Below are positions 14,746-25,345 of a DNA stretch of 64,000 nucleotides, in pieces. The first letter of the stretch is position 1. Each line of letters begins with the position of its first letter. Under the pieces are notes generated by a model. The model saw only the letters and a program-made list of their open reading frames with translations. It was not told the origin of the DNA and searched no databases. Source of the stretch: Flavobacteriaceae bacterium (GTDB taxonomy: Bacteria > Bacteroidota > Bacteroidia > Flavobacteriales > Flavobacteriaceae); assembly GCA_024638165.1 (NCBI GenBank), contig JAHEKV010000001.1:62001-126000 (forward strand), given 5' to 3'. Made by a program: the position numbers and the translations under genes.

Positions 14746-15264
14746 ATGAAAGAGTCTTTAGCAAAGAAGTTAATTACAATTGTCTCTATCGCTGTTCCTG
14801 TGGTTGTAGCGATCTTATTCGGAGTTCGATTACCTAATGTAGAACCCTTAAGTTTTTTACCACCCATTTATGCTTCAATTAACGGCCTAACTGCCGTTCT
14901 ACTTATTGCAGCACTTTGGGCAATAAAAGCGAAAAAAATTACACTCCACCAAAATATCATGAAGACTTGCATTGCCCTCTCGCTTTCATTTCTTTTAATG
15001 TATGTGGCGTATCATATGACTTCAGATTCTACTCCGTTTGGTGGCGAAGGAATTGTTAGAACGTTTTACTTTATCCTACTAGTTTCTCATATCCTGTTAT
15101 CAATAATTATCATCCCCCTTGTGTTGCACACTTACTTAAGAGCTTATCTGAAAGATTTTCAAAGTCATAAAAAGCTCGCTAGGATTACCTTTCCAATCTG
15201 GCTCTATGTTGCCGTTACCGGTGTGGTAGTCTACTTAATGATTTCGCCTTATTATGCCTACTAG
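14746..15264 (+). CDS. DUF420 family membrane protein
   Basis: This 172-aa integral membrane protein has about five spans. Conserved His residues lie in the helices (KITLHQNIMKTCIALS, YVAYHMTSD, SHILLSIIIIPLVLHTYLRA), as in DUF420/CtaM-like proteins encoded with SCO and oxidase genes. It is probably an oxidase biogenesis factor. It overlaps the next small gene by 11 bases. Confidence 0.85.
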   Translation: MKESLAKKLITIVSIAVPVVVAILFGVRLPNVEPLSFLPPIYASINGLTAVLLIAALWAIKAKKITLHQNIMKTCIALSLSFLLMYVAYHMTSDSTPFGGEGIVRTFYFILLVSHILLSIIIIPLVLHTYLRAYLKDFQSHKKLARITFPIWLYVAVTGVVVYLMISPYYAY

Positions 15265-15484
15265 AATAAAGTCGCTATTCTTTTTTGGATTTTTTCTGAT
15301 CTTCTTTTCGGATGTCAGTGCTCAATGTGCCATGTGTCGAGCAGTACTTGAATCGGGCTCTGACACTTCTGCTGCCGAAGGAATCAATAATGGTATTGTC
15401 TATCTTATGGCCATCCCTTATATACTTGTTGGAGTAGTCTTTTATGCGGTTTACAAAAAATTAAGACCCATAAAACGCTCTTAA
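15254..15484 (+). CDS. Small secreted or membrane protein with CAMCRA motif
   Basis: The 76-aa protein has an N-terminal signal or anchor (about residues 6-22, ending DVSAQ), then CAMCRAVLESGS and a second hydrophobic span (about 47-65). The CxxC right after the predicted cleavage site would face the periplasm. Its place at the end of the SCO-DUF420 operon suggests a role in oxidase assembly. It is the last gene of the respiratory block before the accessory insert. Confidence 0.7.
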   Translation: MPTRIKSLFFFGFFLIFFSDVSAQCAMCRAVLESGSDTSAAEGINNGIVYLMAIPYILVGVVFYAVYKKLRPIKRS

Positions 15485-15507
15485 ACATGGCCTTTTTTTA
15501 ATGAACG

Positions 15508-15527
15508 CTGTGATTTATAAATCGCAG
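15508..15527. promoter_or_regulatory. Near-perfect 20-bp palindrome upstream of the HTH gene
   Basis: CTGTGATTTATAAATCGCAG is palindromic except for one mismatched pair. It has no spacer loop and no T-tract, so it looks more like a dimer-binding operator than a terminator. It lies 66 bases before the HTH gene and could be its autoregulatory site. No second copy was noticed. Confidence 0.3.
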
Positions 15528-15592
15528 TGAATATAATTTCGTAAACACCTGTATACGAGATAGTTTGCTATTCGTTTTTAAAATCATTTACG

Positions 15593-15862
15593 ATGAATAG
15601 TATTAAAAATCTACACCGATTAAAAAGATTACACCAGCTCATTCGATCTGAATGTACGGGTACTCCTTATGAACTTTCTAGACGTCTTCATGTCAGCGAG
15701 CGTTTGGTTTACCTTTTGGTTGAACAGCTAAGAGACTTTGACGCACTCATTGACTATGATCGTTCCCGACAGACTTATTACTACCGCGAATTGTTCGATT
15801 TAGAAGTGGACATTTCGGTTCGGGTTTACAATAAAGATCAAATGATTGAATTGTATCGTTGA
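15593..15862 (+). CDS. Small HTH DNA-binding protein
   Basis: The 89-aa protein is mostly a winged-helix/HTH domain: LKRLHQLIRSE, then GTPYELSRRLHVSERLVYLL (helix-turn-helix), then a wing with DYDRSRQTYYYR. This resembles the HTH_11/DeoR-type domain without an effector domain. Such small HTH proteins are common in Bacteroidota. It lies between the oxidase block and the peptide cluster, the same way round, so it is a candidate regulator of that cluster. No function is established. Confidence 0.7.
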   Translation: MNSIKNLHRLKRLHQLIRSECTGTPYELSRRLHVSERLVYLLVEQLRDFDALIDYDRSRQTYYYRELFDLEVDISVRVYNKDQMIELYR

Positions 15863-15898
15863 TCGATTATACTGAAAGGTTGTTGCATCGTCGGCTTC

Positions 15899-15906
15899 TA
15901 GTTTTG
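15899..15906 (+). promoter_or_regulatory. -7 box (TAGTTTTG) of the peptide cluster
   Basis: TAGTTTTG is an exact TAnnTTTG match, with TTG at 15880-15882 upstream as a possible -33 element. It ends 11 bases before the ATG of the 49-codon ORF, the first gene of the cluster. GCTTC...GAAGC repeats flank the box and could form a small hairpin or operator. Confidence 0.55.
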
Positions 15907-15917
15907 AAGCAAATTCA

Positions 15918-16067
15918 ATGATTATGTACAACACTACGTTTAAAAAAAGCAAGCACATTAAGCCGTTAGAACCTCGATTTGAAATGGGGTGGTTCAAAAG
16001 CGGTGAAATTAGTACCAGTATTCAATCAGATGGAGATTTCACTGTCACCGGTAAGATTCGTTTCTAA
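15918..16067 (+). CDS. 49-aa ORF of unknown function heading the peptide cluster
   Basis: The ORF starts MIMYNTTFKKSKHIKPLEPR and ends GDFTVTGKIRF. There is no signal peptide, membrane span, cysteine or Gly-Gly leader. The second half has alternating beta-strand character. It is supported by the -7 box 11 bases upstream and by its stop lying one base before the next start (16069), an arrangement typical of translational coupling. An alternative start is ATG 15924. I do not recognise it; it could be a carrier, chaperone or immunity-type protein. Confidence 0.6.
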   Translation: MIMYNTTFKKSKHIKPLEPRFEMGWFKSGEISTSIQSDGDFTVTGKIRF

Positions 16068-16068
16068 T

Positions 16069-16890
16069 ATGTACCGCGCTTACCAAGCCCTCTTTCGAAG
16101 GGGGCTTATTTATATGTTATACCTAGCTAGTTTCTTTATGCTCCATGGTCAATATTCAAACTCTATTGAGTTAGAGGAGGTCGAATTATCGCCCGATAAT
16201 CTTGTGTTAATGTTGAAATCAATACAAGAATTACCGCAATCTGAAAGTGCTTCAAAATTTAGTCAAGTAGTCTATCGCGAAATATTATCCGCTGGTAGTC
16301 ATTCGGTTTTAACTACTGATAGAAATCTTATTTATCAATTAGATTTAGAACAGCCCCTAAACTATTCGGATGCCTTTGAATCGAACTGGTGGTTAACCGA
16401 TGAGAAATGTTCTTTCTCTGGAAGATACGAGGGGCCTTTTCCTGATTTATCTTTTGCCGCACGTACTTTTCAATTGAGCTATTTCATCAAATTATTAGAG
16501 GATTACTTCGATCGTTTAATTGTTTCAAGAGAACCGGATAAACTGGGCCTGAATTATCATTTTAAAGCTGCTTCTAACATCTCGCCTATGAAAATTTCTG
16601 GCTCATTACTGTTTAATCATGAGAATCAACTATTAGAAATTCAGTTGTTCCTGCGATTTAAGCCTGTAAACTCAAGCCTATCGATTGAGAGTTTACATCT
16701 AGTGAATACGTATCCTTTTAATGAGAAGTTGAGCCGTCAACAAGCGATGACTACCTATATTGATCGAAGTAGTAAGAGAATTACTCAGTTCCAAGATTTC
16801 AGATTCACTGAGGTCTTGGCTGGAGCCGATCAATTTCAATTACCCATAGATACTAAAAAGCCTTTAAAACCCTCTTGTTATGAGCCCTGA
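16069..16890 (+). CDS. Secreted protein of unknown function in the peptide cluster
   Basis: The 273-aa protein runs from ATG 16069; upstream in-frame codons overlap the 49-aa ORF and are rejected. The N-terminus is basic then hydrophobic (MYRAYQALFRRGLIYMLYLA), ending near SFFMLHGQ, which fits a signal peptide. The segment MLKSIQELPQSESASKFSQV followed by VYREI resembles the pattern after the regulatory domain in Bacteroidota carboxypeptidase-regulatory-like proteins, but that domain itself is absent. No catalytic motif is evident. It overlaps the next gene by 11 bases. A periplasmic or outer-membrane partner role is inferred from the context only. Confidence 0.65.
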   Translation: MYRAYQALFRRGLIYMLYLASFFMLHGQYSNSIELEEVELSPDNLVLMLKSIQELPQSESASKFSQVVYREILSAGSHSVLTTDRNLIYQLDLEQPLNYSDAFESNWWLTDEKCSFSGRYEGPFPDLSFAARTFQLSYFIKLLEDYFDRLIVSREPDKLGLNYHFKAASNISPMKISGSLLFNHENQLLEIQLFLRFKPVNSSLSIESLHLVNTYPFNEKLSRQQAMTTYIDRSSKRITQFQDFRFTEVLAGADQFQLPIDTKKPLKPSCYEP

Positions 16891-17623
16891 ATTGGTATAT
16901 GTGCTCTCTCAAGATGGTTCGAGTCCTTTCTATAAATCTTATGCTAGTTTATTCAAGGCTTATCTGCCAACCAGTATCGAGATTCAAGTGGTTGAAGACC
17001 TCGATGTTATTGGTCATTTATTGTTTCAAATGATGATGTATATTGATCGTATCGAAGATGATCAAGCAAAAGGTATGGATACGGTTATTGCACTTCAAAC
17101 AGAAGCTGCTAAGAGACTTTCGTATTATTTTCCCATTGACCATTCCTTTTGGATACAATATGATCGAATTGTTAAAGAGTTTTCTAAACGTAAAAGGCTT
17201 GATAGGTTATGTCATCAAAGAAGTAGTTGGGCCAATTATGAGTCTCTAGCATTATCTCGATCGATTTATGCTGAACTAGGCCTAATAGCGTTCTTAGAGT
17301 TAGGTCTAATTGAGAATCAGAAATGTGATACGCTACTTAAGAGTCATAAACAATTTGTTATTGCCTTTCAGCTATATGATGATTGTGCTGATTTCTATGA
17401 AGATCAGAGTAAAGAACAATTCAATTGGGCTATTCACATGGCGTCTAACAAGGGGATTCCCCTTGATCAATTTTATCAATCTACTCTTTTTACTGCACTA
17501 ATTGATACCGTCGTTAATTATTTAGATCGTGCTACTGATTTGGTGAAGGGATTACCAATCAGTGGATATAGTATGCTTTTAAAGAAGATAAGAGACTCAG
17601 TTGATTCCCTTTATCAAGCATAA
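16880..17623 (+). CDS. Class I isoprenoid-synthase-like protein
   Basis: This 247-aa, mostly helical protein has a second Asp-rich motif VIAFQLYDDCADFYEDQ (DDxxD at 167-171), matching the FQxxDDxxD pattern of prenyl and terpene synthases. An earlier acidic helix, YIDRIEDDQAKG (56-61), could be the first metal-binding site, although it is not a canonical DDxxD. The protein is shorter than typical chain-elongating prenyl synthases (about 300 aa). Lying inside a cluster with a Gly-Gly peptide and an M50 protease, it may make or transfer an isoprenoid group, or bind a prenyl lipid. That role is inference. The M50 gene starts on the next base after its stop. Confidence 0.65.
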   Translation: MSPELVYVLSQDGSSPFYKSYASLFKAYLPTSIEIQVVEDLDVIGHLLFQMMMYIDRIEDDQAKGMDTVIALQTEAAKRLSYYFPIDHSFWIQYDRIVKEFSKRKRLDRLCHQRSSWANYESLALSRSIYAELGLIAFLELGLIENQKCDTLLKSHKQFVIAFQLYDDCADFYEDQSKEQFNWAIHMASNKGIPLDQFYQSTLFTALIDTVVNYLDRATDLVKGLPISGYSMLLKKIRDSVDSLYQA

Positions 17624-18718
17624 ATGAACTCAAAATTATTTCATTGTCCTTCCCACTTTGAACTCATATCAGGTCAATCACATTTGCTTAATGATAAAGT
17701 TCAATTAGTCAGTTACGAGTTAAGTAAAGAGTTATTCGACTTGTTAACGTACTGTCGCCTTCCTAGAAGTAAAGCTGAACTGATCGAAGAGTTGTCGAAG
17801 AAACCGATCTCATCTGAGGAATGTCATGAATTAATCTTAGAGTTAGACGCCCTTATGGGCAAAGAACAAAAGATTCGTTCTAAGGTACTTCGTCGAATAA
17901 ATTATGCTGGGTTAAAGGGAATCGATTTAAGGATTGACGAAGGTCAATTTTCCTGGATCAACACCTTCAAGTTATTTTCAGTCAAGATGATGGTAAGCCT
18001 TAGTCTACTTGCTATCCTGTCTCTATTGGTGATTGGGGTACTATTAGGAAAAAGCTCCTTTGACATTCCATTACCTTTTTGGGGACTATTTTTAGTGCTA
18101 CTTAGTACTCCTATCCATGAATTAGGGCACGTTGTAGCTTATAAAAGCTTAGGAGGAAGCGCTTGTAGCATAGGAGCGGGTTTCTATTTTTTTATTCCGG
18201 TTTTATTCGTTGATGTTTCATTAAGTAATTCACTTTCTAGAGCTAATCGATTAAAGATTAGTCTGGCTGGTGTTTACTTCGAATTGATTTGGGTTTTGCT
18301 TTTACTAGGTTTTGGGTTGGCTTTACAAATTGATTGGATGTATACGGTCATCCTTTTGATTGGTATTCAAGCCTTATGGAATTTGAATCCATTTTTTCGA
18401 TCAGATGGTTATTGGATTCTATCTGATGTAACAAATACTCGATGGCTTTCGAAAAGCAGTACTGAAGAATTAAAAATATTCATTAAAGCTAAAGAGCCTT
18501 TCAATGGGTTAGTCTTCTATGCAATAACAAGGAGTTTGTTTATTACTTATTGTATGATTCATCTGATTTATCAATTCTTTTTTGCCGAAAAACGCTTGAT
18601 TGAGGTCTTGATTGATTTTGTTCGATCTCCTTCGATTGATCATTATTCAGTAACACTTATACTTCCTTTTCTGCTTTTAATATCCCTTTTTCGTTATGCT
18701 GCAAAGAGATTGCAATGA
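17624..18718 (+). CDS. M50-family membrane metalloprotease with PqqD-like N-terminal domain
   Basis: In this 364-aa protein, residues about 1-85 (HLLNDKVQLVSYELSKELFD through LILELDALMG) look like a PqqD-type winged-helix peptide-binding domain. Membrane spans then begin near residue 118. The zinc site is HELGH at 165-169. The third ligand is D261 in NLNPFFRSDGYWILSD, the N-P-x(4)-DG motif of intramembrane or peptide-processing M50 enzymes. Similar proteins accompany peptide and bacteriocin export genes, where they process or protect against membrane peptides. It lies 37 bases before the Gly-Gly peptide gene. The protease call is firm; the recognition-domain call is from pattern only. Confidence 0.85.
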   Translation: MNSKLFHCPSHFELISGQSHLLNDKVQLVSYELSKELFDLLTYCRLPRSKAELIEELSKKPISSEECHELILELDALMGKEQKIRSKVLRRINYAGLKGIDLRIDEGQFSWINTFKLFSVKMMVSLSLLAILSLLVIGVLLGKSSFDIPLPFWGLFLVLLSTPIHELGHVVAYKSLGGSACSIGAGFYFFIPVLFVDVSLSNSLSRANRLKISLAGVYFELIWVLLLLGFGLALQIDWMYTVILLIGIQALWNLNPFFRSDGYWILSDVTNTRWLSKSSTEELKIFIKAKEPFNGLVFYAITRSLFITYCMIHLIYQFFFAEKRLIEVLIDFVRSPSIDHYSVTLILPFLLLISLFRYAAKRLQ

Positions 18719-18755
18719 GCCCGGATATCTTACCTATCAATTCTAAAACAGAACA

Positions 18756-18899
18756 ATGAAAAGAACTTTATCAATACCTGAAATGAAAAAGGTGAGGGGT
18801 GGTTTCTTGCCCTTTGTAGTAATCCTAGTTATCGATGCTACACTACTCGGTTTTATGAGTGGATATATTTATGAATCTTTTACGAATGATCACCGATGA
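18756..18899 (+). CDS. 47-aa precursor peptide with double-glycine leader
   Basis: The leader MKRTLSIPEMKKVRGG (16 aa) has all marks of a bacteriocin-type leader: L(-12), S(-11), E(-8), M(-7), V(-4), G(-2), G(-1). Cleavage after GG would release a 31-residue core starting FLPFVVILVIDATLLGF. It is strongly hydrophobic, with a G-x-x-x-G (GFMSG) and a polar tail (YESFTNDHR). The core has no Cys. A stand-alone C39 peptidase, which cuts such leaders, is encoded 171 bases downstream. The core would span a membrane and could be a bacteriocin-like or signalling peptide. It is too short for routine gene calling and easily missed. Confidence 0.85.
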   Translation: MKRTLSIPEMKKVRGGFLPFVVILVIDATLLGFMSGYIYESFTNDHR

Positions 18900-18966
18900 T
18901 TTTCTCTGCATTAACCAAAAAATCTCTGGAGGTAGGTCTTTTCGAGATTTTTGTTCAAAGCTTTAG
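18871..18966 (+). CDS. Possible second Gly-Gly leader peptide (weak)
   Basis: An ORF of 31 codons in the +1 frame relative to the 47-aa peptide gene overlaps its last 29 bases. From the internal ATG at 18886 it would encode a 16-aa leader MITDDFLCINQKISGG and a 10-aa core RSFRDFCSKL. The KISGG ending is typical of Bacteroidota Gly-Gly leaders, but the -7, -8 and -12 positions do not match. It may be a chance ORF. Confidence 0.25.
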   Translation: MNLLRMITDDFLCINQKISGGRSFRDFCSKL

Positions 18967-19001
18967 ACGAGGACAAGATTTTTATCATAGAGACTGCAAT
19001 C

Positions 19002-19088
19002 ATGAATAAAGAATGGCAATATGGGTTAGGTTTTGTAGCATTACTGGCCCTATTTATAATTATTGGGAGATGGGTGGCTACTCAGTAA
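19002..19088 (+). CDS. 28-aa single-span membrane peptide
   Basis: The ORF reads MNKEWQYGLGFVALLALFII and ends GRWVATQ: a short polar N-terminus, one hydrophobic span of about 16 residues and a short basic tail. There is no Gly-Gly leader. Its stop (19086-19088) overlaps the C39 peptidase start (19070) by 19 bases in another frame, an arrangement used for translational coupling. It could anchor the soluble C39 peptidase to the membrane, act as an immunity peptide or be a second effector. Too short to prove from composition alone. Confidence 0.5.
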   Translation: MNKEWQYGLGFVALLALFIIIGRWVATQ

Positions 19089-19474
19089 TATCCGTTAAAC
19101 AACGATCTTTTTTTGATTGTGGAATAGCCTGCTTAAAAAGTCTATTTCTATACCATGGCCTATTCTTCAATCTTCCAAGACGCAAAAAACGTTTACGGGG
19201 ATATAGTCTTTATGAGCTTTTTAAGTTAGCTGAGCAGCAGGGGATACAGGCGCTTGTTTATCGATCGTCATCATTTGATATGAATTATATTCCCTGTCTG
19301 GTTCAGCTAAGCTATATGGGGCTTGGTCACTATGTTGTTGTGTATGGCTACACTGCGAATAAACTACAAATTATGGATCCTTCGGCGGGTCGTATGTATT
19401 GGATGTGTGAAACGAAATTTCAGCGATTGTGGTCAGGGTTTTTCCTAGTTTTATCAGAGAAAAACCCCCTGTAA
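19070..19474 (+). CDS. Stand-alone C39 (bacteriocin-processing) peptidase
   Basis: At 134 aa from ATG 19070, this is a complete C39 domain: oxyanion Gln and nucleophile in KQRSFFDCGIACLKSL (Q11, C17), catalytic His in GLGHYVVVYGY (H87) and Asp in IMDPSAGRMYW (D103). C39 domains cut after double-glycine leaders and are normally fused to an ABC exporter. Here the protein ends right after the domain, with no membrane segment or ATPase. An earlier start at 19013 would add 19 residues from the overlapping membrane-peptide gene; 19070 fits the family N-terminus better. The natural substrate is the 47-aa peptide encoded just upstream. Confidence 0.9.
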   Translation: MGGYSVISVKQRSFFDCGIACLKSLFLYHGLFFNLPRRKKRLRGYSLYELFKLAEQQGIQALVYRSSSFDMNYIPCLVQLSYMGLGHYVVVYGYTANKLQIMDPSAGRMYWMCETKFQRLWSGFFLVLSEKNPL

Positions 19475-19575
19475 AGCCTGCTTTGTTGAAATTTTAACGT
19501 TGCAATGAGAATATATGCTGTAACAAAACAGTTTCTTTGTCGTCTTAAAGGTTATAAACGTAGCTAGGCGTATTG

Positions 19576-20277
19576 ATGATAGAAATTAAAGACTTGCATA
19601 AGTCATATCAAATGGGCAGTAATTCACTGCATGTTTTAAAAGGAATCAACTTTTCTGTAGAACAAGGTGAATTGGTGGCAATTATGGGCTCTTCGGGTTC
19701 TGGTAAATCGACTTTGCTGAACATATTAGGAATGTTAGATGAAGCTAATTCAGGTTCTTATACCTTAGATTCAGTGCCTATTGTAGATCTCAATGAGACC
19801 AAGGCTGCGGAATATCGAAATAAGTTCCTAGGATTCATTTTTCAGTCTTTTAATTTGATTAATTACAAATCGGCTGTTGAAAATGTTGCGCTTCCATTGT
19901 ATTATCAAGGTAAAGCTAGAAAGGAACGCAATGCAACAGCACTAGAATATCTCAATCGAGTGGGGTTAAAACCTTGGGCCGACCATTTGCCTAGTGAATT
20001 ATCAGGAGGTCAAAAGCAGCGTGTTGCTATTGCTCGTGCAATGGCTGCAGACCCTAAAGTTCTTTTAGCGGATGAGCCTACCGGAGCTTTAGATAGTAAA
20101 ACCTCTTATGAGGTGATGGATCTCATTCAGAAAATTAATGATGAGGGTAATACCATACTAGTGGTAACTCATGAGGAGGATATCGCCCATATGTGTAAGC
20201 GAATTGTCTATCTGAAAGATGGCGTAATTGTTGAAGATAAAAAAGTAGACCAAGTACGCGCCTCTCAATATGTTTAG
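19576..20277 (+). CDS. MacB/LolD-type ABC transporter ATPase
   Basis: The 233-aa protein carries Walker A (GSSGSGKSTLL), Q-loop (FIFQSFNLI), signature (LSGGQKQRVAIARA), Walker B (VLLADEPTGALD) and a switch His (VVTHEE). This is the MacB/LolD/FtsE class. Gene order (ATPase, two FtsX-like permeases, adaptor, TolC) defines a tripartite exporter of macrolide/peptide-exporter type. It lies 101 bases after the C39 gene on the same strand and overlaps the first permease by 8 bases. It could export the cleaved peptide or be an unrelated conserved system. Confidence 0.95.
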   Translation: MIEIKDLHKSYQMGSNSLHVLKGINFSVEQGELVAIMGSSGSGKSTLLNILGMLDEANSGSYTLDSVPIVDLNETKAAEYRNKFLGFIFQSFNLINYKSAVENVALPLYYQGKARKERNATALEYLNRVGLKPWADHLPSELSGGQKQRVAIARAMAADPKVLLADEPTGALDSKTSYEVMDLIQKINDEGNTILVVTHEEDIAHMCKRIVYLKDGVIVEDKKVDQVRASQYV

Positions 20278-21499
20278 TAGAGATACCTGGAAAGAGATTT
20301 TCGATACCATTCGAAAAAATAAGCTTAGGACCTTTTTGACGGGGTTTACTATGGCCTTAGGAATTTTTATTGTAGTTATTCTAGTGGGGTTCACTAATGG
20401 TTTGCAGAATACGTTTGAAAAATTCTTTGGTGATGATGCTACCAATACCCTGTTTGTATTTCCAGGTAGAACATCGATGCCCTACAAGGGGTACACTTCG
20501 AATCGAAGAATTCAATTCGATAATTCAGACTTAAAAGATGTCGAGGAAAATTTTGCACTGTTTCTTGACTACATTACTCCCCGCATTACTCGTTCTAGTT
20601 TAGTAAGATACAAGGGAGAATCGAATAACTATACTAATAGAGCAGTTGCTCCAGCCCATCAATTCAGCGAGAAAACGATTATCATGAAAGGTCGTTTCTT
20701 AAATGAAAATGATATAAATATCAGGGCGAAGTATGCCGTGATTGGGCGTTTAGTCGCCAAGGACTTATTCAAAGAAGAAGACCCGATTGGGAAATACATC
20801 ACTTTGGGAGATAGTGCATTTAAAGTTATTGGTGTGTTCCAAGATGATGGAGGTGATAATGAAGAACGCTTCATCTATATTCCTTATACTACAAGACAGC
20901 TGATTGAAAAAGGGAATGATAAGATTGAACAGATCATCCTTGGATTTAACCCTAGTATAGGCTATGCAGGTGCTATGGCTCTCGAGAAAAATGTGACTAA
21001 ACTTCTCAAAGAGAAGAAGTTCATTGCGAGAGAAGATCGCAGCGGAATATTCATTCGAAATATTGCAGATGAACTGAAACAAAATCAACAGTTCGCTCAA
21101 GTTTTAGGTTTTATTGCACTGTTTTTTGCTATAGGTACGATTATAGCAGGAATCATTGGTGTAAGTAATATCATGATTTTTGTAGTTAAGGAGCGTACCA
21201 AAGAAATTGGAATTCGAAAAGCTTTAGGAGCAACACCTAGAGTCGTGATTAGTACAATCTTATTGGAGGCTACCACCATAACTATTTTATCTGGTTTCTC
21301 TGGCATGCTTGCTGGGGTTATTATTCTACAGAATCTAGGGGGTAGGCTTGAAGACTATTTTATTACCAATCCTTATATCGATTTGGGTTTCGCCATTGGA
21401 GCCACTGTAATCTTAATTATTTTCGGAAGCATCGCTGGGTATATTCCCGCGAAGCGTGCTGCTCGAATCAAACCCATTGTAGCACTTAGAGACGAATAA
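20270..21499 (+). CDS. MacB-type ABC permease 1
   Basis: The 409-aa protein has the MacB/FtsX topology: one N-terminal span (KLRTFLTGFTMALGIFIVVI), a periplasmic domain of about 230 residues, then three C-terminal spans (GFIALFFAIGTIIAGIIGVS onward). The conserved coupling stretch VKERTKEIGIRKALGATPRV precedes the last helices. It is paired with a paralogous permease one base downstream, suggesting a heterodimeric transporter rather than the fused MacB of Proteobacteria. Confidence 0.93.
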   Translation: MFSRDTWKEIFDTIRKNKLRTFLTGFTMALGIFIVVILVGFTNGLQNTFEKFFGDDATNTLFVFPGRTSMPYKGYTSNRRIQFDNSDLKDVEENFALFLDYITPRITRSSLVRYKGESNNYTNRAVAPAHQFSEKTIIMKGRFLNENDINIRAKYAVIGRLVAKDLFKEEDPIGKYITLGDSAFKVIGVFQDDGGDNEERFIYIPYTTRQLIEKGNDKIEQIILGFNPSIGYAGAMALEKNVTKLLKEKKFIAREDRSGIFIRNIADELKQNQQFAQVLGFIALFFAIGTIIAGIIGVSNIMIFVVKERTKEIGIRKALGATPRVVISTILLEATTITILSGFSGMLAGVIILQNLGGRLEDYFITNPYIDLGFAIGATVILIIFGSIAGYIPAKRAARIKPIVALRDE

Positions 21500-21500
21500 T

Positions 21501-22763
21501 ATGCGATTTTTATTTAAAAGCGATACATGGCAAGAAATATTCAGCTCGATTAGTAAGAATCGAGTAAGAACACTCTTAACTGTTATTGGCGTGCTATGGG
21601 GAATCTTTGTCTACATCGCAATGTCGGGTGCTGCCAAAGGTTTAGATAATGGTTTTGAAAGACAATTCGAGACGGTTGCAATGAATTCGCTGTTTGCTTG
21701 GTCACAGTCTACGAGTAAACCTTATAAAGGTTTTCGCACAGGTCGAAGAATTCAGCTTCGATTAGGAGATATCGATGTTTTAAAGAAAAGAATTCCAGAA
21801 ATTCAGTACATCGCTCCAAGAAATGCTACCGGTGTTTTTGGTGGCAGTCCTGCCTTGACGGTTAGAGGTCAGAAATCGGGTAGTTATAACGTGTACGGCG
21901 ACTTCCCGGTTTACACCAAGATCGCAACAAAGAAAATCTACGATGGTGGCAGGTTCATCAATGAAATGGATATTGAAGAATCTCGAAGAGTTTGTGTTAT
22001 TGGAGAAAGAACTAAAACCGAACTTTTTGAAGATGAAGAGGAGGCAATAGGATCTTTTATTCGAATCAATGACATCTATTTTAGGATAGTCGGTGTCCAT
22101 AAGTTTGTTCCTGGTGGAGGTTTCGAATCAGATAGTGATATTTTTATTCCCTTTACCACTTTCAATAAACTTTACAATAAGGGGGATGACGTTGACTTTA
22201 TGAGCATCGCAGCCTTTGATGATGCAGATATCGTGAAAGTCGAAGAGGACGTCAAGACCGTATTAAAGTCGATTCACAATGTTGACCCAACCGATGATCG
22301 CGCTTTTGGTTCATTTAATCTGGGTGAGATTTTTGGTCAAGTTCGCGGGTTTGCTAACGGACTAACCTTTTTATCTCTAATTATTGGAGCTGCAACTATT
22401 CTTGCCGGTGTTATCGGAATTGGTAATATCTTACTGATTTCGGTTAAAGAGCGAACGAAAGAACTTGGAGTCAGAAGAGCACTTGGAGCTACTCCAGCCG
22501 AGGTGAGAAATTTGATTTTATTGGAGTCCGTTTTCTTGACCCTCGTATCTGGTTTACTAGGTATCATTTTAGGCGCTGCAACCCTGAACTTAGTCAATAA
22601 TCTGACCGAAGGCAGTGATTTTCCTTATACCAATCCGACAGTACCCATACCCTATGTAGTTGGAGCATTAGCTTTAATGGTCATTCTTGGTACACTTATT
22701 GGATTGATCCCCGCGCAAAGAGCGGTTAGTATCAAACCAATTGATGCTCTTAGAGAAGAATAA
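21501..22763 (+). CDS. MacB-type ABC permease 2
   Basis: This 420-aa paralogue of the preceding gene opens similarly (SDTWQEIFSSISKNRVRTLL compared with SRDTWKEIFDTIRKNKLRTF) and has the same coupling motif (SVKERTKELGVRRALGATPA). Topology is one N-terminal span, a large periplasmic domain and three C-terminal spans. The two permeases probably arose by tandem duplication and form a heterodimer with two copies of the ATPase. Confidence 0.93.
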   Translation: MRFLFKSDTWQEIFSSISKNRVRTLLTVIGVLWGIFVYIAMSGAAKGLDNGFERQFETVAMNSLFAWSQSTSKPYKGFRTGRRIQLRLGDIDVLKKRIPEIQYIAPRNATGVFGGSPALTVRGQKSGSYNVYGDFPVYTKIATKKIYDGGRFINEMDIEESRRVCVIGERTKTELFEDEEEAIGSFIRINDIYFRIVGVHKFVPGGGFESDSDIFIPFTTFNKLYNKGDDVDFMSIAAFDDADIVKVEEDVKTVLKSIHNVDPTDDRAFGSFNLGEIFGQVRGFANGLTFLSLIIGAATILAGVIGIGNILLISVKERTKELGVRRALGATPAEVRNLILLESVFLTLVSGLLGIILGAATLNLVNNLTEGSDFPYTNPTVPIPYVVGALALMVILGTLIGLIPAQRAVSIKPIDALREE

Positions 22764-22801
22764 TTTAATAAATACTATTACTATATAATTAAATACCTAT
22801 C

Positions 22802-23935
22802 ATGAAAAACGTAGTTAAATGGAGTGTAATCGCTGTACTTACCTTAGGAGGTCTTTGGGCAGCCGCATTCTTTGTAAAATCGAATAGCAAGGGTGCAATT
22901 ACCTATGAGTCTTTCCAGCCTTTTTACAGTGATATAGAACAAAAGACCGTAGCGACAGGCACCGTAGTTCCTGAGGATGAAGTTGAAATCAAGCCTCAGA
23001 TTCAAGGAATTATCGATGAGCTAGTTAAAAAGGAGGGAGATTTTGTTCAGGTGGGCGATTTAATTGCTGTCATTAAGGTAGTTCCTAATGAGCAATCACT
23101 TTTTGCTGCTCAAGGACGAGTAAAAAATGCTGAATTACGATTGAATAATACTAAGCTTGAGTTTGAAAGAAATGAGGCTCTTTTTGAGCGCGGTGTTATT
23201 TCAAATCAAGATTATAACAACCTGAAGTTAGCTTTCGATCAAGCAACTCAAGACTTAAAAAATGCAGAGGCCGATTATCAAATCATCAAGGAAGGTTCTG
23301 TCGGAGGTTCTTCTTCTGCTAACACCAATATCAGAGCTACTACTACGGGTACTATTCTTGAAATTCCAGTTGAAAAGGGGGATCAGGTTATTCAATCAAA
23401 CTCTTTTAACGCGGGTACTACGATTGCCACTGTAGCTGACTTAACCAAAATGGTTTTCGAAGGTAAAGTTGATGAAGGCGAAGTAGGAAAACTTAAAGTT
23501 GGAATGCCTTTAAAGGTTAGTCTTGGAGCCATCGTTGATAAAGAATTCGATGCTAAACTTCGTTTTATTGCTCCTAAAGGACAAGAGGAGTCTGGTGCAG
23601 TTAAATTTAAGATTGAGGGGGATGTAGTGATTGAGGATGATTTTACTGTTAGAGCGGGATACAGTGCAAACGCATCTTTGATTTTAGAGAGAAAAGAGAA
23701 TATTTTGGTTTTACCTGAAGCACTTTTACAATTTGACAAGTCTACTGATCTGCCTTATGTTGAGGTAGAAGTTGGGGAGCAAAAATTTGAAAGAAGAGAT
23801 ATAACTATCGGAATTTCTGATGGAATTAACGTAGAGATCCTCGATGGGCTAACTACAGAGGATAAGGTAAAACAGTGGAACAAGACTGAGCCAATAAAGA
23901 TTGAGAACGAGGATGCTCCAGAACGCGGAGTGTAA
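22802..23935 (+). CDS. Periplasmic adaptor protein (MacA/HlyD family)
   Basis: The 377-aa protein has an N-terminal anchor (about residues 6-26), a lipoyl/barrel-sandwich half (VEIKPQIQGIIDELVKKEGD), an alpha-hairpin (about 95-160) and the returning half (IRATTTGTILEIPVEKGDQV), then beta-barrel and membrane-proximal domains. Such adaptors join an inner-membrane ABC pump to a TolC-like channel. It follows the two permeases and precedes the TolC-like gene by a few bases. Confidence 0.93.
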   Translation: MKNVVKWSVIAVLTLGGLWAAAFFVKSNSKGAITYESFQPFYSDIEQKTVATGTVVPEDEVEIKPQIQGIIDELVKKEGDFVQVGDLIAVIKVVPNEQSLFAAQGRVKNAELRLNNTKLEFERNEALFERGVISNQDYNNLKLAFDQATQDLKNAEADYQIIKEGSVGGSSSANTNIRATTTGTILEIPVEKGDQVIQSNSFNAGTTIATVADLTKMVFEGKVDEGEVGKLKVGMPLKVSLGAIVDKEFDAKLRFIAPKGQEESGAVKFKIEGDVVIEDDFTVRAGYSANASLILERKENILVLPEALLQFDKSTDLPYVEVEVGEQKFERRDITIGISDGINVEILDGLTTEDKVKQWNKTEPIKIENEDAPERGV

Positions 23936-23965
23936 CAAGTGCTTCTTAATTTTAAACGACAACCT

Positions 23966-25345
23966 ATGAGATCATATATATTACTTTTTTTAACGGTCTT
24001 CAGTATTGGAGCTTCTGCTCAGGAGAAGAAAATGTCTTTAGCTGAATGCGTAGAATATGCTTTAGAAAATAATATTACCGTTGCCCAGTTTGAGTTAGAC
24101 TTAGAGTCGGCTGAACTTGGAAATTTAGATGCCTTGGGTCAATTTCTACCAAGATTGAATGGTTCGCTATCGGTGAATGAGAGTAAAGGTTTAATTCTTG
24201 ACCCGCAAACTCAAACCAATGTAGCGGGTAATATCTTATCAGGAAGTATCAGCCTTTCGGCAGGATATACCATTTTTGATGGCCTTCGCAACATTAAAAG
24301 AGCGCAGAGAGCTCAAATCAATACGATTGCCAATCAATATCGCTTAGCTAATCTTCAAGATGACATTCGTTTAAGAGTAGCTAATGCCTATCTAAGTGTT
24401 ATATCATCAAAGGAGTCACTACGTGTTGCTGAAGCTCAATATGCGGTTACTGAACAAGATTTAAAACGTACTAAAGAATTAGTAGGTTTAGGGGTGGTGC
24501 CACAGGGTGATCTTTTAGAAATTGAGGCTACTGCGGCAAATCAAGAGCAAGCCATTGTAAATGCGGAGGCACGCGTTATTCTTTCGAGAATTACACTAGC
24601 GCAATTACTACAAATTACCGATTATGAAAACTTTGATATCGCAGATGAATCCTTTGAGGTTCCTAGTTCAGATATTTTAGATAAGACTCCTCGTCAAATT
24701 TTCAATAAGGCTTTGAGTTTCAGAAATGATATTAAATTATCAGAGGCGAATGTTTCATTATCTGAACAAGACCTAGCAATTGCAAAAGGTGCTGCACTAC
24801 CTACACTTAACGCCTTCTTAAACTATAATACTTTTGCTAGTGATCGTTTCACGATTCAAGCTAATCCGAATCAAGACCCTAACGACCCTACGGATGATTA
24901 TAACTTGGTAAGACCTGATTTTGTCGCTCAGTTAGAGGCGAATGATGGAATCTCTTTTGGAATGTCAATGAATATTCCGATTTTCAACGGATTCTCAACA
25001 AATAACAGTATTAAGCGCGCTGAAATAGGAGTGAGACGAACAAAGCTCCAATTTGAACAGGCGAAACTAGATCTGGAAAATGCGGTCAACCAAGCCTATA
25101 ATGACGTGAAGACTTTCGCTAAGGCTTATGAGGCAGCACAAAAGACGTTGGAAGCTAGAAAATTAGCCTATCAATATGCAAAAGAGCGTTTTGATGTTGG
25201 TCTTATGAACTCTTTCAACTTTAGTCAAGCTCAGGCCCGTTTAGATAACGCTGAGGCAAGTGTGATTCGTACTAAGTATGACTATATCTTTCGATTAAAG
25301 ATTTTAGAATTCTACTTCGGCATTCCGATTACGGTACTTCAATAA
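23966..25345 (+). CDS. TolC-family outer-membrane efflux protein
   Basis: The protein is 459 aa from ATG 23966, which gives a clean signal peptide (MRSYILLFLTVFSIGASAQ). A GTG start at 23939 would add nine residues and spoil it. The body holds two OEP-type repeats of coiled-coil helices (SLAECVEYALENNITVAQFE, then FNKALSFRNDIKLSEANVSL and beyond) that build the trimeric outer-membrane channel and periplasmic tunnel. It completes the tripartite exporter. tsaB follows with its own promoter. Confidence 0.93.
   Translation: MRSYILLFLTVFSIGASAQEKKMSLAECVEYALENNITVAQFELDLESAELGNLDALGQFLPRLNGSLSVNESKGLILDPQTQTNVAGNILSGSISLSAGYTIFDGLRNIKRAQRAQINTIANQYRLANLQDDIRLRVANAYLSVISSKESLRVAEAQYAVTEQDLKRTKELVGLGVVPQGDLLEIEATAANQEQAIVNAEARVILSRITLAQLLQITDYENFDIADESFEVPSSDILDKTPRQIFNKALSFRNDIKLSEANVSLSEQDLAIAKGAALPTLNAFLNYNTFASDRFTIQANPNQDPNDPTDDYNLVRPDFVAQLEANDGISFGMSMNIPIFNGFSTNNSIKRAEIGVRRTKLQFEQAKLDLENAVNQAYNDVKTFAKAYEAAQKTLEARKLAYQYAKERFDVGLMNSFNFSQAQARLDNAEASVIRTKYDYIFRLKILEFYFGIPITVLQ

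Follow-up and report, generated by a model that had tools for sequence, protein, structure and literature searches.

A conserved double-glycine precursor peptide with a partner peptide and a free-standing C39 peptidase in a flavobacterial gene island

Introduction

Class IIb (two-peptide) bacteriocins are described as carrying a GxxxG or GxxxG-like motif in each peptide, and a one-helix immunity protein of 42 aa is known (PMC8538875). The bacteroidetocins are peptides of Bacteroidota with double-glycine (GG) leaders of 15-16 aa and C39-type cleavage; they are described as single peptides, positively charged and with several cysteines, accompanied by a full C39-ABC exporter and usually by a thiol oxidoreductase (PMC6671954). 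In Neisseria, the nap island is a small accessory island with a putative regulator, GG peptides, and an exporter-free C39 peptidase; the Naps are cationic, a FapF-like channel (NapF) is part of the system, and cleavage is placed in the periplasm in the authors' model, with autolysis proposed for the gonococcal Naps rather than the killing of rivals (PMC11798529).

Here, a stretch of 64,000 nucleotides from the genome of a Flavobacteriaceae bacterium (the window) was analyzed, in which a sequence-only reading had singled out an unannotated 47-aa ORF as a GG-type precursor, here termed P1. The ORF lies in a compact island, all on the + strand, whose features are as follows.

15593..15862, +, HTH protein, probable regulator (weak Pfam HTH_11 match; blastp)
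15918..16067, +, p49, a second and different precursor-like peptide (LEPRFEMGW...)
16069..16890, +, unclassified protein, start uncertain, no family match
16880..17623, +, class I isoprenoid-synthase-like protein with two Asp-rich motifs
17624..18718, +, M50-type membrane metalloprotease (HELGH; Pfam M50 E 4.4e-4, below cut-off)
18756..18899, +, P1, GG precursor
18756..18803, +, P1 leader, 16 codons, predicted cut after G16
18804..18896, +, P1 core, 31 codons, hydrophobic, with GxxxG (GFMSG), net charge -2
18896..19009, +, P2, 37-aa partner peptide, leaderless in the window, C-terminus YHRDCNHE
19002..19088, +, P3, 28-aa single-helix hydrophobic peptide, leaderless, putative immunity candidate
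19070..19474, +, free-standing C39 peptidase, 134 aa, start at 19070 inferred from relatives
19573..25345, +, MacB-type ATPase, two permeases, HlyD-type and TolC-type proteins; resident, not specific to the island

Two adjacent small peptides and a GG leader on P1 are points of likeness to class IIb systems, as may be the short GxxxG motif of P1 and small-xxx-G motif of P2; a further one is a homologue, the P1 of genome G288, that passes the cut-off of the class IIb family TIGR03949. In the window, P2 is leaderless, a C39-ABC exporter is absent, the P1 core is net negative, and the TIGR03949 score is below cut-off, all of which are differences; because the P2 leader and the C39-ABC exporter are absent, the window copy is not assigned to class IIb here. 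The phylum, the leader type and length, and the predicted C39-type cleavage are shared with the bacteroidetocins as characterized above, whereas the paired arrangement, the net negative core, the lack of cysteine in P1, and the gene complement set the island apart from them. With the nap island it shares the small accessory format, the putative regulator, GG peptides, and a C39 peptidase without an exporter, but the Naps are cationic, with a NapF channel and periplasmic cleavage in the published model (PMC11798529), and by eye they are not like P1 or P2. The C39 domains of PCAT1, ComA, and LahT150 are alike in their structure-profile match to the window C39 and in the leader positions concerned (PMC6363468); the window C39 differs in being a separate gene without a membrane or ATPase domain. 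Among the titles and abstract openings listed in literature searches, none reported these peptides or a free C39 beside MacB, which is weak evidence of absence.

P1 is a conserved gene under purifying selection

The proposed 47-aa ORF is present exactly at 18756-18899 on the + strand, running from ATG to TGA. Counted back from the cut predicted between RGG and F, its leader holds all of the residues that had been claimed for it (L-12, S-11, E-8, M-7, V-4, G-2, and G-1), at positions as in LahT150 (PMC6363468), and the GFMSG motif sits, as had been noted, in a hydrophobic core. P1 has no cysteine. Among homologues, the core is net negative in 9 of the 10 computed, and GxxxG, a short motif, is retained in 9 of 11 aligned.

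The evidence that this small ORF is a gene comes from pattern uniqueness, conservation, and selection. A loose GG-leader pattern matches just one of 484 window ORFs of 25-100 aa, namely P1, compared with a mean of 0.28 matches in 60 dinucleotide shuffles of the window (~748 such ORFs each); a strict pattern, drawn up after P1 had been seen, has zero matches in the 60 shuffles. Within the genus, 7 of 11 genomes have strong P1 profile matches (E <= 1.6e-14), six of which supplied the profile and the seventh of which, G002, is new, and the conservation of the frame in relatives that the earlier reading had called for is thus found. Only weak matches occur in G008 and G003 (E 0.24 and 0.56), and profile search found none in G006 and G007; matches at E 0.016-0.56 were left out of the count, namely those of G008 and G003 and the secondary ones of G000, G004, and G010. 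Across the divide between the window's clade (window, G004, and G010) and a second clade (G001, G009, and G005), P1 copies share 57-61% identity with that of the window, while the same comparison gives 36-38% for the isoprenoid synthase, 28-29% for the M50 protein, and 35-36% for C39 (the latter excluding G001, whose frame is broken). Nei-Gojobori counts for P1 are 13.5/30.0 synonymous versus 1.5/111.0 non-synonymous changes for G009-G005, and 22.0/30.3 versus 13.0/110.7 for G001-G009; strong purifying selection acts on P1, P2, and C39 inside both clades.

The distribution of conservation within P1 runs contrary to one expectation of the sequence-only reading, a conserved leader with a variable core. 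It is the core that is conserved (FLPF...DA..LGFM.GYIYES.T.DH) and the leader that varies, to the extent that leaders of the second clade (G001, G009, and G005) end in AG with S or T at -4, an ending outside the GG, GA, and GS listed in PMC6363468.

Could P1 nevertheless be a chance ORF and no gene? It is a mere 47 aa long, and the window copy has no match over a cut-off in Pfam or NCBIfam profile searches, scoring 14.8 versus a cut-off of 21.5 for NCBIfam TIGR03949 (lactobin A/cerein 7B). Against this are its conservation with synonymous bias, its being the sole GG-leader match among the small ORFs of the window, and a profile that finds homologues in genomes of the genus and the family. The probability of a chance ORF is negligible and it was set aside on conservation, selection, and pattern uniqueness; P1 is settled as a gene because of its conservation and the synonymous and non-synonymous counts. 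That P1 is a real gene and a GG precursor, and probably a C39 substrate, is well supported by comparative sequence evidence. The sole Pfam match of P1, an adenovirus family at E 0.094, was taken as chance, and a search of plasmids with P1 returned just one match (E 0.9).

Partner peptides and a C39 peptidase without a transporter

The genes that follow P1 are tightly interlocked: the P1 stop codon lies over the P2 start codon in a four-base overlap, the end of P2 overlaps P3, and P3 overlaps the C39 gene. P1 and P2 are paired in all loci read that carry a P1 of the window type. P2 is leaderless in the window and in 7 of 8 window-type cassettes, and in G198, from another genus, it has its own GG leader. 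A [GSAC]xxxG motif, again short, is present in 10 of 10 aligned P2 sequences (S-xxx-G in the window), and selection on P2 is similar to that on P1. The sequence-only reading had hinted at a two-peptide bacteriocin, and the finding of a partner, with GxxxG kept in most aligned P1 sequences, strengthens that hint. P3 has one hydrophobic stretch and is positioned where an immunity gene would be expected; it is under weaker selective constraint, with a ratio of 0.56-0.84 in the second clade.

A C-terminus of YHR[ND]C[NDS]HE is found in P2 of six aligned members of the genus; the HR[ND]C[NDS]H portion is kept in the genus and in G198, and HRNCDH occurs in the C39-ABC locus of G354. The residues form a Cys/His cluster at the end of the peptide.

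The C39 peptidase that had been placed downstream of P1 is indeed encoded there (Pfam PF03412, E 1.7e-19, 70.4 bits versus a cut-off of 22), although as a free 134-aa domain and with two overlapping peptide genes in between. Its catalytic columns (Q11, C17, H87, and D103) are invariant in seven sequences, and a profile of seven window-type sequences matches the PCAT1, ComA, and LahT150 structures (E 2.7e-22 to 1.9e-11). It is 27-30% identical to exporter C39 domains by blastp, and by eye it has no obvious signal peptide. A search of the window genome gave one C39 match, this free-standing one, and five ABC_membrane proteins, none with a C39 domain, such that a C39-ABC exporter is absent from this genome. 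Since the C39 protein is without transporter domains, the ordinary export route is missing.

C39 follows the peptides in 8 of 8 window-type cassettes read (window, G004, G010, G001, G009, G005, G002, and G198). The proposal that P1 is the likely substrate of C39 is thereby supported comparatively, C39 being the only one in the genome and downstream in each cassette, and distant P1 homologues sit in loci with full C39 exporters. In G001 (L008), the C39 frame is broken by one extra base relative to two congeners, and an assembly error and a recent loss cannot be told apart.

Relatives with full C39-ABC exporters

Three genomes from other genera (G354, G288, and G425) carry P1 and P2 homologues between HlyD-like and C39-ABC-exporter genes, in the order HlyD-like, HTH, P1 (GG), P2 (GG), P3-like, a 71-75-aa ORF, and C39-ABC. 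In these three genomes, as in G198, both P1 and P2 have a GG leader. The C39-ABC transporters are 672-721 aa long and lie directly after the 71-75-aa ORF or after other genes. In G354 the interval is occupied by a decayed second copy, additional GG peptides, and a protein of the CAAX-protease type; in G425 it contains a 509-aa ORF beginning with a C39 domain. Pfam identifies C39, ABC_membrane, and ABC_tran domains in the transporter of G354 and HlyD in the HlyD-like protein of G288; the remaining genes of the exporter loci were assigned by visual inspection and by blastp searches with the C39 part. In the decayed second copy of G354 (L061), P1 is shortened and continues into a leader like that of P2. 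The stretches read of these three genomes showed neither an isoprenoid synthase gene nor an M50 gene.

P1 of G288 is over the TIGR03949 class IIb cut-off (22.6 versus 21.5) and P2 of G288 is over that of the bacteriocin-leader family TIGR01847 (18.9 versus 15.7); at E <= 1, 7 of 11 P1 members match TIGR03949. Among 397 genomes of the family, the best six for P1 are also the best six for P2 (G000, G010, G198, G354, G288, and G425). The P1 profile contained none of G354, G288, and G425; the P2 profile was made from these same loci, so its recovery of the same six is by construction. No strong P2 match without P1 was found among the 397 genomes. The family P1 count leaves out G422, G164, G272, and G252 (E 0.004-0.008), the last of which is a hit overlying an opposite-strand gene, and G436 (4.3e-4), where a related peptide and a C39-ABC gene were seen and no P2; the P2 hits G183 and G133 were left out of the locus reading. 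An order-wide search of 395 genomes gave 11 with a match at E <= 0.01. In five of these loci, read by eye, GG peptides are accompanied by HlyD-like and C39-ABC genes; the matches rest mostly on the leader except in G364, whose peptide resembles that of G436; G684, G717, G637, G660, and G465 were left out of the locus reading. A further flavobacterial locus with several GG-leader peptides and HlyD-like and C39-ABC genes was seen in G351 (L109).

The cassette of G198 looks intermediate, judging from its gene content. Its C39 gene is followed by a 279-aa ORF that is weakly collinear with the membrane domain of the exporters (E 0.005 by blastp and 0.003 by hmmsearch in a tiny database) and has no Pfam match, and may be a remnant of that domain; the next ATPase gene is of the MacB type. 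A series may be represented, starting from a full C39-ABC exporter, passing through a C39 that retains a trace of the membrane domain, and ending in C39 alone.

An accessory island beside a resident MacB operon

The HTH protein at the start of the island shares 34-53% identity with those of the G354, G288, G425, and G436 loci. At the other end lies the MacB-type operon, whose ATPase was assigned by NCBIfam family matches and whose other members were assigned by eye. The gene that precedes the island (QCAMCRAVLES...) lies at 15254-15484 in the window; in G008, the MacB-type ATPase gene comes straight after it, an empty site, and in G006 the same site holds only a 69-aa ORF that resembles the 3' end of the G002 C39 gene, both sites having been compared by eye. 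These sites indicate that the stretch from HTH to C39 comes and goes largely as a block and that MacB-HlyD-TolC is resident. MacB-type pumps are described as taking substrates from the periplasm (PMC8277102), and the MacB-HlyD-TolC proteins therefore cannot simply stand in for the exporter if cleavage takes place in the cytoplasm. A dedicated export role for MacB was rejected on this ground and on its occurrence without the island in G008. Rfam has no match in 15400-19700.

How the peptides may be used

Together, these observations slightly favor a reading in which P1 gives rise to one member of a class IIb-type pair with P2, is cut by C39, and is encoded in a cassette derived from a reduced C39-ABC locus. 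Under this scenario, the overlapping genes would couple production of P1, P2, and P3, and the free C39 would recognize the leader helix of P1 (L-12, M-7, and V-4) and cut after RGG to yield a 31-aa hydrophobic core. The core and P2 may then associate through small-residue faces in a membrane, possibly in an antagonistic role, with P3 as an immunity-type single-helix peptide that would protect the producer. The cassette would have descended from HlyD-HTH-P1-P2-P3-C39/ABC loci, with the exporter cut down to its peptidase domain and the P2 leader lost in the lineage of the genus, and the peptides would exit by a borrowed route or act on the envelope of the producer itself. The strongest objections to a class IIb-type reading are that an exporter is missing, that P2 is leaderless, that the core is net negative, and that the leader is relaxed in one clade; also counting against it are the sub-threshold TIGR03949 score of the window P1, the weakness of the G198 remnant, and the broken G001 C39.

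The first four of these points keep alive, at a low probability, a second reading by analogy with the Naps, namely that the peptides were repurposed after loss of the exporter and act at the producer's own envelope. The high conservation of the P1 core, the resemblance of the gene set to the nap island (PMC11798529), and the periplasmic loading ascribed to MacB-type pumps (PMC8277102) are also consistent with such a role. Retention of C39 and of a good leader in the window's clade argues against it, and the Naps, as described, are cationic and have NapF as an export channel (PMC11798529).

Loss of the exporter domains and of the P2 leader might instead mark the cassette as the leftover of a decaying bacteriocin locus, without present function. 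The relaxed leader of the second clade, the frame break in G001, the loss or absence of the island in G008 and G006, and the decayed P1-P2 copy in G354 would fit with decay; it is highly improbable, as P1, P2, and C39 are under strong purifying selection in each of the two clades. The finding points to a lineage of two-peptide GG-leader systems in flavobacteria, and it raises in testable form the question of the route by which peptides of this kind get out of a Gram-negative cell that lacks their exporter, or of the reason for their retention.

An isoprenoid-synthase and M50 module with its own peptide

The genes between the HTH gene and P1 bring to light an uncharacterized peptide module whose enzymes are of the isoprenoid-synthase and M50 types. 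The isoprenoid-synthase-like protein falls below the cut-off of Pfam polyprenyl_synt (E 0.034), and its profile matches a trans-prenyltransferase structure (E 5.8e-4); the Asp columns of its two motifs are the same in all 13 sequences aligned. Structure prediction was poor (mean pLDDT 39.4 alone and 41.7 with two relatives). The M50 protein is below the cut-offs of the daptide and epipeptide protease families NF041824 and NF058609 (68.7 versus 300 and 46.9 versus 225), and the G047 homologue scores 121.4 and 68.0. Some relatives have CarboxypepD_reg-type proteins where the window has the unclassified protein at 16069..16890, and one of these relatives has a CarbopepD_reg_2 match just under its cut-off. 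A p49-like peptide with L[EQP]xRxE[MFL] or a close variant is present in 13 of 14 loci with the synthase; in G033, where the synthase ORF is short, none was seen in the stretch read. The conserved segment is L-E-x-R-x-E-M-G-W with a nearly invariant Trp, and NCBIfam returned nothing meaningful for p49.

Six genomes read (G047, G262, G416, G150, G026, and G201) have the synthase, M50, and p49 module without P1-P3 or C39, with contigs ending early in G047 and G026. Because the modules occur apart, P1 and p49 look like substrates of different machines, and P1 as the main substrate of the synthase and M50 protein was set aside. A reading in which P1 (and P2) are further substrates of these enzymes, and the island makes one modified multi-peptide product, is very unlikely: the genes are closely packed in the window, G004, G010, G001, G009, G005, and G198, but, besides the six genomes with the module on its own, G354, G288, and G425 have P1-P2 without synthase or M50.

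It is possible that p49, the synthase, and the M50 protein form a new modified-peptide system; among the titles and abstract openings listed in literature searches, none reported an isoprenoid-synthase/M50 peptide cluster in Bacteroidota, again weak evidence of absence. The module may resemble ComQ/ComX-type peptide isoprenylation, in which a ComQ-like enzyme acts on a Trp of the peptide. A more specific proposal, that the synthase prenylates the p49 Trp (EMGW) and the M50 protein trims the peptide, giving a Gram-negative counterpart of ComQ/ComX that would sense or time the release of C39-matured P1 and P2, is distinctly unlikely.

A strong terminator-like stem-loop (16085-16107) lies right after the p49 stop codon and perhaps favors expression of p49 over that of the genes behind it. 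In four relatives tested, the synthase part is fused to a squalene-hopene-cyclase-like part, the match in G416 being below cut-off. The fusions, of ~630-665 aa, are found in other genera beside M50 and p49-like genes, at the following positions.

L038:1963-3855, synthase fusion protein
L039:5660-7558 (-), synthase fusion protein
L041:5985-7913 (-), synthase fusion protein
L042:6203-8197 (-), synthase fusion protein
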